64,000 nt of DNA, taken from Natrinema amylolyticum (GTDB lineage Archaea > Halobacteriota > Halobacteria > Halobacteriales > Natrialbaceae). The position numbers and the translations under genes were made by a program. Each line of letters opens with the position of its first letter. Within the stretch, counting starts at the first letter, position 1. Location of the stretch: the NCBI RefSeq assembly GCF_020515625.1, contig NZ_JAIWPJ010000002.1, positions 248,001 through 312,000 of the forward strand, written 5' to 3'. The notes beneath the pieces were generated by a model that worked only from the letters and a program-made list of their open reading frames with translations, was not told the origin of the DNA and made no database searches. Below are positions 56,597 through 59,486 of the stretch, piece by piece.

Positions 56597-57649
56597 CTAC
56601 AGTCCGGGTCGCCGTCGCCGCCGGCGCTCCTCGAGAACCCGTTGCGATCGTTTTCCGGGGCCGCCCTCGATCGGCCAGCCGCGGGTGCGCCAGACCGGCG
56701 GCTCGGGCTCGAACTCGCCACAGGAGCCGGAACACTCGGCGGCCGTCTGGCACCGGTCCTCGGCGGCGCAGTACGGCAGCGCCTGGGTCGCGTCTCGAGC
56801 GCGCAACTGGAAGTGGCGGCAGTCGGGACGCATCGTGTCGACGAACGAGCGCCAGCCGCGTTCGTAGGCGCGCTCGGCGATCGTGAGCCGTTTGTCGGCC
56901 TTCCAGTCGGGATCGACGTACTCGAAGCGGGCGGCGGAGCCGTCGCGCTCGCCGCCGGCCGGCCGATCGAGGATCCGGCTCCCCGGCTCGTCGACCGCGA
57001 GCGATCGAGGGTACCATTCGACCGCGGCGGTCAGGTCATCGGGCTCGAGCGAGAGGATGCCCGCCTCGATCGGGAGGTCCTCGAAGAGGGCGGGTTCGAC
57101 GGCGTCGCCCGTCTGCCGGGTCGCGACCCAGACCTCGTCGGCCAGCCCCATCGCGACGTCGTACTCGAGTTGCGAGGCGAGCGCGCGGGCGGCGCTGGCG
57201 TCGAGATCCGGCTTGTTCTCGATCGCGACGATCCGCTCGAGCCAGTCCGGATAGACCCACTTTCGCCGGATCTCGATGCGATTACCGTTCTTTCTGGTCT
57301 CGAGGATTCCGCGGTCGGCGGCGCCGTGGATCGCCTCGCGGACGTATCGCCACGGGTAGCCGGGGTGGGGAAGCGCGTCGCGGTAGTAGGCCCACTCTTC
57401 GGGGGCGTTTCGGACGACGTGGCGGAGATCATCGTCGAGCCGCTCGAGGCCGAATTTCGCTCGCTGGCGGAGAGCCTCGGGATCGCACTCGAGGACGATG
57501 GTGTCCCAACGGCGGCGCTTCGTCCCGAGTTGGCGGGCGACGACGATCGCGGTGTCGTCGCCGGCGGGGTCCCCTCCCGGCGGCCACTCGCGTTCGGCCC
57601 ACCGGCAGGCCCGGAGCTCGAACCCGAACTCAGCAGTGTCTGGGTCCAC
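56597..57649 (-). CDS. DUF5787-family protein
   Basis: A 350-residue soluble protein starting with GTG at VDPDTAEFGFELRACRWAEREWPP. A nuclease-like strand IVAIENKPDLDAS is followed by a helix with LEYDVAMGLADEVWVATR, recalling restriction-endonuclease-fold E-x-K cores. Near the C-terminus four cysteines (CAAEDRCQTAAECSGSC) could bind a metal or Fe-S cluster. It matches haloarchaeal DUF5787, function unknown. The nuclease reading is an inference. Confidence 0.78.
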   Translation of the reverse strand: MDPDTAEFGFELRACRWAEREWPPGGDPAGDDTAIVVARQLGTKRRRWDTIVLECDPEALRQRAKFGLERLDDDLRHVVRNAPEEWAYYRDALPHPGYPWRYVREAIHGAADRGILETRKNGNRIEIRRKWVYPDWLERIVAIENKPDLDASAARALASQLEYDVAMGLADEVWVATRQTGDAVEPALFEDLPIEAGILSLEPDDLTAAVEWYPRSLAVDEPGSRILDRPAGGERDGSAARFEYVDPDWKADKRLTIAERAYERGWRSFVDTMRPDCRHFQLRARDATQALPYCAAEDRCQTAAECSGSCGEFEPEPPVWRTRGWPIEGGPGKRSQRVLEERRRRRRPGL

Positions 57650-57761
57650 GGTCCTCCTTCGAATCGGAGCACGAAAAGCGCTACTTGATCGAGCCCGCTG
57701 CGGTATCGAATCCGTCGCGGCTCGTCGACAGGTCCCGTTCAGCCTTCCTGACACGTTCTCC

Positions 57762-58046
57762 TCACGCCGGCCACTTCTCCGCAGCGCCGCCCTGAACCGC
57801 CGGAACCACCGTCAGCGACGCGTCGTCCGGAACCGCCCGCTCGAGCCCCGCACGCTCCCCGTCGATCGAGACTCTGACGCTCGAGCGAACCGCGTCGCCG
57901 TCGAAGAGGTGGGGCTCCGCTCGCGGATACGCCTCGACGATGGCCGCGAGGGCGTCCGCGACGGTCCCGCCCGCCCACTCGAGCGTCACGGTTTTTCCGC
58001 CGGTCGCACTCCGGAGCGGACCGTACACCGTAACTGCCGTTTCCAT
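57762..58046 (-). CDS. MoaD/SAMP-like ubiquitin-fold protein with buried diglycine
   Basis: A 94-residue beta-grasp protein: VTVYGPLRSATGGKTVTLEW, then VADALAAIVEAYP and a VRVSIDGERAG strand, like MoaD and the haloarchaeal SAMP modifiers. In active family members the chain ends -GG for adenylation; here VPAVQGG is followed by seven more residues (AAEKWPA). Either the tail is trimmed, or the protein does not act as modifier or sulfur carrier. It lies near purC on the minus strand. Confidence 0.82.
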   Translation of the reverse strand: METAVTVYGPLRSATGGKTVTLEWAGGTVADALAAIVEAYPRAEPHLFDGDAVRSSVRVSIDGERAGLERAVPDDASLTVVPAVQGGAAEKWPA

Positions 58047-58120: not shown

Positions 58121-58327
58121 TCAGTCGTCGCTCGGTTCGGCGCGGGACCCGGCGGTCGACGTCACGTCCTGCTGGCCGACCCACGTCGACGAGAACAGCG
58201 GTGCGGCGGCGAACAGCACCATCACGAGCACGAACAGCGTCAACATGGCGCTCGCGACGGCCGTGATGCCGGTGGTAAGGTTGAACAGGACGATACCCGC
58301 TGTGACTCCACTGGTAGCGAGGCTCAT
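58121..58327 (-). CDS. Small membrane protein of unknown function
   Basis: A 68-residue protein with one or two hydrophobic segments (about 8-25 and 26-46) and a polar acidic tail ending S-D-D. It lies between purC and the MoaD-like gene on the same strand and may be co-transcribed with either. No family recognised. Confidence 0.6.
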   Translation of the reverse strand: MSLATSGVTAGIVLFNLTTGITAVASAMLTLFVLVMVLFAAAPLFSSTWVGQQDVTSTAGSRAEPSDD

Positions 58328-58457
58328 TTGCGGTCGTCCGAATGTGGCCAGTCCCCCAATATGAGGGTTACTTTGTCCGACCGCGATTGCGAACCGATAC
58401 CATTTGACTGAGTCTCGGGTCGCGCGTGATCGAGAGCGTCGCGACAGAAGTCGGTCG

Positions 58458-59486
58458 TTACAGCCGCTGTACTGCACCGATCGCGCTCGAGAGCGGGGGC
58501 GCGTCGAAGACGTCCCGGCCGGTGTAGGCGTTGGCACCGGCGCGGTAGAGATCGCTGGCGGTCTCGAGGACGTCGTCGTCGAGCGGTTCGGGCTCCTCGT
58601 CGCAGAGGGACTTCCAGTCGGCGACGTCTTTCCGCTTCGCCGTTGCCTTGGCGGCGTCGACGGCTTGGACCCACTCGGGTTGGGTGCGCTTGTGGTACTG
58701 GCGGAGCACCTCCTTCGAGAGCTGGGTGCCCTCGTAGCTGAAGCGGTTCTCGTCGAACGTGCCGACGACGTCGGCGACGCGGAGGTCGCCCTGATAGTAG
58801 AGGCACTCGATCTTGCCGTCCTCGTGGACCAATCCGGCCGAGTCGGCCTGCTCGGTGACGATCCGGTTGACCTTGCGGGCGAGCGACTCGAGGTCCCCAA
58901 TCGACGCCTTGCCGGCGATCGAGTCGGCCTCGTCGCGCTCGAGTTGGCGGTCGCTCTCCTCGTACTTCGTGGTGAACTCGACGATCGGCTCGTCAAGGTC
59001 GACGGCCTCGTCGGGCCAGCTCTCGAGGTCGAGACCGTGATCGGCGGGCTCGGTTCGGTCTCGCAGACTCGAGCCGACGGGGACCCGGTTGCGGAAGACG
59101 ATCTCGAGGGGAATCAGGTAGTTCTCGCCGGCCGCATCGTGGTAGTGCTCGTAGTCGTACTCCCGACCCTCGTGGGGCAGGTCCGGCACCTGCGTGAGGT
59201 CGATTGCCATCTCCCAGGGCGGGTGGGAAGCGTCCTCGAGGGCGACGACGTCGCCGTTCTCGACGACGCCGCGGTAGTGGGTCGGGACGCCCTCGCTCTC
59301 GAGCAGTTCGAAGTTGAACGCGCCCATCGTACAGAGGCTCGCGCCCTTCTGGGGGATCTGGTCGGGCATCTTCCCCCAGTCGAACACCGAGTAGTCGTCG
59401 GTGAAGACGAACGCTCCGCGGCCGAACTCCTCGTCGGTCGCCGCGTCCTCGATGCGGAACTCTTTGACGCTCGTCACGCGTGACAC
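58458..59486 (-). CDS. purC: SAICAR synthetase
   Basis: A 342-residue phosphoribosylaminoimidazole-succinocarboxamide synthase (ATP-grasp-like). Landmarks are FVFTDDYSVFDWGKMPDQIP, VFRNRVPVGSS, and DGKIECLYY. The haloarchaeal type is longer than the roughly 240-residue bacterial form because of C-terminal additions. Start is GTG at either 59486 or 59477. The product goes to PurB, whose gene lies about 22 kb away. Confidence 0.95.
   Translation of the reverse strand: MSRVTSVKEFRIEDAATDEEFGRGAFVFTDDYSVFDWGKMPDQIPQKGASLCTMGAFNFELLESEGVPTHYRGVVENGDVVALEDASHPPWEMAIDLTQVPDLPHEGREYDYEHYHDAAGENYLIPLEIVFRNRVPVGSSLRDRTEPADHGLDLESWPDEAVDLDEPIVEFTTKYEESDRQLERDEADSIAGKASIGDLESLARKVNRIVTEQADSAGLVHEDGKIECLYYQGDLRVADVVGTFDENRFSYEGTQLSKEVLRQYHKRTQPEWVQAVDAAKATAKRKDVADWKSLCDEEPEPLDDDVLETASDLYRAGANAYTGRDVFDAPPLSSAIGAVQRL

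Follow-up and report, generated by a model that had tools for sequence, protein, structure and literature searches.

Ubiquitin-like proteins (Ubls) such as MoaD, ThiS and SAMP are activated through their last glycine, and any residues behind this glycine prevent adenylation. The window studied here (the whole stretch of 64,000 nucleotides that was analysed, G000:C2:248001-312000) encodes a protein of this type in which a diglycine is followed by seven further residues, and the first-pass annotation had proposed either a precursor or an inactive relative. We consider it probable, though well short of certain, that the gene encodes a SAMP/MoaD-type Ubl in the form of a precursor with a facultative tail, which would be cut behind the diglycine by JAMM1 and then activated at its new end by UbaA.

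The protein and its reading frame

The coding sequence is located at 57762..58046 on the minus strand (94 residues plus stop; METAVTVYGPLRSATGG...VVPAVQGGAAEKWPA, then the stop codon) and was identified as that of a ThiS/MoaD-type Ubl from Pfam, NCBIfam and PDB sequence matches and from its orthologues. The start M1 is backed by homology, as most orthologues of the genus align from this residue. The C-terminus (VPAVQGGAAEKWPA) reads VPAVQGG and then AAEKWPA, so that the initial description of a SAMP/MoaD-like protein with its diglycine buried by seven residues was confirmed. The codons of G86 and G87, the predicted mature C-terminus, lie at 57786..57791 (minus), and 92 of the 93 distinct orthologues have kept this pair. 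They are followed by the seven codons of the tail (residues 88-94; 57765..57785, minus), which varies in length and sequence among orthologues and is predicted to be removed, and by the present stop codon TGA (57762..57764, minus).

The match to the Pfam family ThiS (PF02597; 31.1 bits, cut-off 22.5) covered the whole profile (1-76) and stopped at residue 87, the second glycine of the pair. The score with the SAMP1 equivalog model NF041918 was 57.9 bits, below the cut-off of 60, whereas an untailed orthologue reached 71.1 bits (query typed with an approximate N-terminus); with the archaeal MoaD subfamily model TIGR01687 it was 32.2 bits, below the cut-off of 49.5. Judged from its sequence, the protein is a member of the ThiS/MoaD beta-grasp superfamily that is not filed as SAMP1. 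The encoded, exposed C-terminal diglycine of SAMP-type proteins is absent from it and is present in 42 of the 93 orthologues. Weak Pfam matches to lambda tail protein I and DUF348 were below cut-off and were rejected as identities for the protein.

An AlphaFold2 model was built from two sequences, those of the window protein and L032, the latter being identical to the G019 copy. Confidence was low (pLDDT 60.9), and in this weak model the order of elements was strand-strand-helix-strand-strand-helix-strand, with confidence below 50 for residues 85-94. A PDB fold search with the weak model returned nothing at E <= 0.001.

Upstream of the gene, and also on the minus strand, are a small hydrophobic protein (58121..58330; no Pfam match at E 1) and purC (58458..59486). 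Both are usually found upstream within the family, and purC serves as a syntenic marker supporting orthology there. A DUF5787 gene (56597..57754, minus) lies directly downstream, on the side where relatives carry a convergent acetamidase/formamidase gene.

Distribution and paralogues

An intact orthologue was found in 19 of the 29 genomes of the genus, and in all 19 the diglycine was followed by a tail of 2-45 residues, so the buried diglycine of the window gene is more than a chance occurrence. The gene was absent from eight of the 29 (seven without a match, and G010, in which the match was a paralogue) and broken in two, being frameshifted in G017 and decayed in G022. Matches were obtained in 47 of 117 genomes in the family-level search and in 86 of 391 genomes in the class-level search. 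The gene was thus missing or broken in many relatives, and four broken copies (G017, G022, G044 and G332) show that it is dispensable.

All counts below refer to a set of 93 intact orthologues from haloarchaea, in which identical sequences were counted once; 51 of them are tailed and 42 end at the diglycine. Paralogues or more distant relatives (L002, L027, L030, L031, L033, L037 and L077) and broken copies (L026/L029/L141 from G017, L028/L140 from G022, L076 from G044 and L138 from G332) were dropped beforehand. One dropped relative, L077 (G043), was also tailed, with AAMSGG and then SHRLLYQRRF.

Three ThiS-family genes over cut-off were present in the window's own genome. The other two, with the ends FPPVSGG and FPPVAGG, stop exactly at the diglycine and fitted the SAMP1 model NF041918 at 126 and 105 bits, far above the window protein. 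As a control, two core paralogues were examined across the genus, and these ended exactly at the diglycine in 28/29 and 28/28 cases (56/57 together). As almost all of the core paralogues stop at this position, the tails are a trait of the gene family studied here and not of the genome. The sole exception among the 29 was a core paralogue of the SAMP1 type, L173 (G017:C4, around 73695-73976). It has GGAR at its end, so that tails arise in SAMP1 itself too. The genome carrying it, G017, also holds a frameshifted copy of the gene reported here.

Conservation of the diglycine and variability of the tail

A tail was present in 51 of the 93 orthologues, and the remaining 42 stopped exactly at the diglycine. 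Tail length ranged from 1 to 45 residues (median 3), with 37 of the 51 tails having 1-5 residues and five having 19-45, and tail sequences varied among orthologues. The diglycine was kept in 50 of the 51 tailed and in all 42 untailed orthologues; the lone exception was the tailed L073, which has TG in place of GG. Orthologues without the diglycine, which had been named at the outset as evidence against a functional precursor, therefore amounted to one in 93, and the conservation of the tail, also proposed for checking, was that of a variable appendage behind a nearly constant GG. The two glycines were 98% and 100% conserved in the 51 tailed rows and were among the best conserved columns. In the tailed set the first glycine codon was GGC in 37, GGT in nine and GGG in four, with ACT once, and the second was GGC in 23, GGA in 15, GGT in seven and GGG in six; synonymous variation was thus present in both. 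Residues such as G9, R12, P41-R42 and S56-V57-R58 were invariant in the 19 tailed rows of the genus. For a processed precursor, just this combination of a conserved diglycine and a varying tail would be expected.

Intact tailed frames were spread over many genera. On the best gene tree (88 columns, 93 rows) the tail state changed 11 times, with at least three changes forced by supported branches; many forks of this tree are unresolved, and gain and loss of the tail are indistinguishable on it. The 45-residue tail of L018 (G020) holds tandem copies of a short DNA repeat, an example of growth by repeat expansion, and this fits a tail that is free to drift.

Origin of the tail

In 30 of the 51 tailed orthologues the tail begins with serine, and all 30 codons were TCN, compared with 255 TCN and 183 AGY among the serine codons of the core. 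TCA and TCG are one base off a stop codon, and the remaining TCN codons can be reached from these two silently. The first tail codon began with T in 32/51 cases against 777/7957 core codons; many of the rows behind these codon and tail counts share ancestry and are not independent. By its sequence the first codon of the tail resembles a stop codon that has mutated, since the serine codons were all TCN, with TCA and TCG one base from stop. Over the whole codon, 15 of the 51 were one base from a stop, 27 two bases and nine three bases, and over the first two bases 39/51 were one change away, against 3726/7957 core codons. As only 15 are literally one base from a stop, a simple mutation of the stop codon has to have been followed by further changes.

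A ribosome reading on past the end of an untailed gene would meet another stop in frame after a median of 58 codons, compared with the median tail of 3 (Mann-Whitney p 1e-13, with relatedness ignored). The tails are far shorter than this, and plain read-through to that stop was therefore ruled out as their source; either short tails are favoured or new stops have been gained. In L013, L015 and L021 the tail and its stop lie, by eye, inside a short palindrome (such as CCTCGC-TGA-GTGAGG), the arms of which seem to co-vary. The two convergent genes might use this palindrome as a common terminator.

Processing and activation

In the proposed mechanism, the stop codon right behind the diglycine would have been lost in several lineages, so that the ribosome adds a few residues. 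The JAMM1 metalloprotease would hydrolyse the bond after G87 and release the tail, and the exposed glycine would be adenylated by the single UbaA-like E1. The adenylated Ubl could then donate sulfur as a thiocarboxylate or be attached as a modifier through an isopeptide bond, and its first candidate target would be the product of the conserved neighbour acetamidase/formamidase gene. As JAMM1 would tolerate almost any tail, the sequence and length of the tail could drift and the diglycine could not. The C-terminal peptides predicted for the window protein are AVPDDASLTVVPAVQGG if it is cut and AVPDDASLTVVPAVQGGAAEK if it is uncut.

The window's own genome carries two Prok-JAB (JAMM) genes over cut-off, both with H-x-H-x7-S-x2-D, which we take to be the JAMM catalytic motif. 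It also has one ThiF match over cut-off (E1-like, UbaA; 278.5 bits, G000:C1:1899954-1900682), and with these three genes the parts for processing and activation are present. Both marks of a JAMM-processed precursor, a conserved diglycine with a tail behind it and a JAMM protease with the motif in the same genome, were found. In published work on HvJAMM1 (PMC4443979), this enzyme cleaved a linear SAMP1-MoaE fusion in vivo, cleavage was undetected once the diglycine had been deleted, and product masses in vitro put the cut after the last glycine. From these observations together, the present protein is probably cleaved in the same way.

If JAMM1 is the trimmer, genomes without it should not tolerate tails. 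The best JAMM matches for the 93 rows were bimodal, with E below 1e-16 on one side and E above 1e-10, or no match at 1e-8, on the other, and a match with E below 1e-12 was scored as JAMM1-type. Of the 79 orthologues whose genomes gave a JAMM1-type match, 51 had tails, and of the 14 whose genomes gave none, not one was tailed (Fisher p 4e-6); 28 orthologues were untailed in spite of JAMM1. Ten of the 14 rows lacking JAMM1 came from one genus (g35), and when these were collapsed to one the comparison became 0/5 against 51/79 (Fisher p 0.008). A paired test on the tree gave two independent pairs on supported branches, a number which cannot reach significance, and five on all branches. The tail changed in the direction of JAMM1 in an average of 0.7 pairs and in the opposite direction in none, the pairs being too few for power. 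The association of the tail with JAMM1 is in line with trimming by this protease and, resting on few independent events, is a lead and not a proof.

The convergent acetamidase/formamidase gene

A gene of the acetamidase/formamidase family (PF03069; 150.7 bits for the L063 copy) was found downstream on the opposite strand in 90 of the 93 loci and was convergent with the Ubl gene in 90/90, within the stretch examined around each locus. The median gap between match ends over the 90 loci was 30.5 bases; it was at most 100 bases in 62 and more than 1000 in 11, and in three the matches overlapped. The three loci without the amidase gene in the stretch were those of the window, G081 and G362. In G362 it was located about 3.4 kb downstream of the Ubl gene, and in the window's genome it was located 102 kb off on the same contig (G000:C2:202012-203316); G081 had no amidase match at E 1e-120. 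When open reading frames were clustered over 62 loci, the next cluster besides the amidase and the frames overlapping it and the Ubl covered eight loci. Within stretches of 6-7 kb, purC was found near family members only and DUF5787 in the window's own stretch only, and both were rejected as class-wide functional partners.

Among 391 genomes, both genes were present in 84, the Ubl only in two, the amidase only in 91 and neither in 214 (E 1e-15 for the Ubl model and 1e-120 for the amidase; Fisher p 4e-33, ignoring relatedness and linkage). The amidase gene was thus also present in 84 of the 86 genomes with a Ubl match, the two exceptions being G081 and G332, the latter with a broken Ubl gene. 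Nine plasmid records matched the Ubl, seven of them being annotated 'ubiquitin-like small modifier protein 1'. The pair was present in all seven records examined of the nine, with differing flanking genes, and four of these seven Ubls were tailed. The records came from Haladaptatus (two), Halomicrococcus, Haloferax, Haloprofundus, Halorientalis and Halobaculum, and at least two of them (Haloprofundus and Halobaculum), judged by their length, are contigs already counted as G193 and G226.

The pairing suggests a functional link between the Ubl and the amidase. The same picture would arise if neighbouring genes were lost or transferred together, and in 91 genomes the amidase occurs in the absence of the Ubl, so that the link stays a suggestion. 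A stronger version, which we regard as unlikely, is that the Ubl is a dedicated partner of the amidase within a transferable tail-to-tail cassette and, freed by JAMM1 where it is tailed, would modify, mature or restrain the amidase, as SAMP1 does with MoaE. If so, the presence or absence of the facultative tail would decide whether the Ubl of a given lineage is controlled by JAMM1 or constitutively active. In Halorubrum lacusprofundi one of the amidase genes, amd3, is needed for growth on acetamide, and the word MoaD is absent from that paper's text (PMC5052560). The pairing in any case provides a concrete functional lead for an uncharacterised SAMP relative.

Alternative explanations

The tail could instead be kept and the diglycine be chemically unused, the protein only binding a partner (the amidase, for example) and the GG serving the fold or the binding. 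This might account for tails in as many as 51 of the 93 intact orthologues, and the convergent pairing may point to a protein-protein role. However, the 42 untailed relatives end exactly at the diglycine, the geometry which adenylation needs, and the diglycine is near-invariant although the weak model places it after the last of the predicted strands (77-81), within the low-confidence stretch 85-94; we consider simple binding unlikely. The tail might also be trimmed by a general carboxypeptidase or another protease in place of JAMM1. Tails of 19-45 residues in five of the 51 orthologues, the lack of any tail in the 14 rows without a JAMM1-type match (few independent events) and the published activity of JAMM1 on a linear fusion (PMC4443979) make this quite unlikely, even though 37 of the 51 tails have just 1-5 residues and are within the reach of an exopeptidase.

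The remaining alternative builds on the second half of the original proposal, an inactive relative, and takes this relative to be decaying, its tailed forms being on their way to becoming pseudogenes. The frameshifted G017, the decayed G022 and the broken G044 and G332 copies could be read in this way, as could the lack of the gene in eight of the 29 genomes of the genus. Against this, the diglycine and many core residues, among them G9, R12, P41-R42 and S56-V57-R58, were invariant in 19 tailed rows, the diglycine was among the best conserved columns of all 51, and intact tailed frames were found in many genera. Decay is therefore very unlikely as an account of the family, yet the four broken copies show that the gene can be dispensed with. 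The precursor half of that proposal has fared better, being favoured by the diglycine kept in 50 of the 51 tailed orthologues, by the JAMM and E1 genes and by the published JAMM1 cut.

Relation to known systems

SAMP1 (PDB 2l83, 3po0 and 4hro; NF041918) belongs to the same ThiS/MoaD family, with PDB sequence matches to the window protein at E 4e-6 to 1e-5, but it ends at the diglycine and lacks the seven-residue tail. The best PDB sequence match was a MoaD related protein (1v8c, presumably from Thermus thermophilus; E 2e-7), which also has the diglycine inside the chain; this chain, however, is 168 residues long with about 80 behind the diglycine, and a short variable tail is absent. Pseudomonas QbsE, of the thioquinolobactin pathway, is a sulfur-carrier Ubl with the two-residue tail CF after its diglycine, which is removed by the JAMM protease QbsD. 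It shares with the proposed precursor a short C-terminal tail cut by a JAMM protease, and differs in its two-residue length, its pathway and its dedicated enzyme.

Haloarchaeal JAMM1 in the HvJAMM1/SAMP1-MoaE study (PMC4443979) cuts a linear peptide bond directly after the diglycine, as proposed here, but in an engineered fusion, whereas the tail of the window protein is natural. The comparison with eukaryotic ubiquitin precursors that had been made at the outset is apt, and a closer precedent is offered by the archaeal SAMP and CsUb precursors of Caldiarchaeum subterraneum, which likewise have residues behind the diglycine and are processed by JAMM-family enzymes (PMC6043591). According to that paper, the CsUb precursor loses nine residues, CsJAMM and CsRpn11 were shown biochemically to cut C. 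subterraneum precursors, and the SAMP precursors were cut by CsJAMM and not by CsRpn11. In the family of the window protein, by contrast, the tail is facultative and stop-loss-like, and cleavage is inferred.

JAMM-cut tailed archaeal Ubl precursors are thus already published, for Caldiarchaeum; two features, a tail that is facultative and stop-loss-like and an amidase gene as convergent partner, are apparently unreported so far. In the passages retrieved from the open-access literature, neither a haloarchaeal SAMP relative with a tail nor its pairing with an amidase was described; among these passages, those from the Natrialba magadii genome paper list four SAMP-like proteins and leave a tail unmentioned (PMC3403918). 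Orthologues with and without the tail, in genomes with and without JAMM1, provide a natural experiment on the processing of Ubl precursors in tractable haloarchaea.

The archaeal Ubl survey of Makarova and Koonin describes GG and CC C-termini and reports a Halobacteria-only group, arCOG00539, with a C-terminal CC (PMC2948915). A further protein of the window's own genome, L039 (G000:C2:1001655-1001759 and around, outside the window), gave a weak ThiS match of 20 bits, below cut-off, and ends in YPFMFCC, and in this it resembles the CC-ended group.
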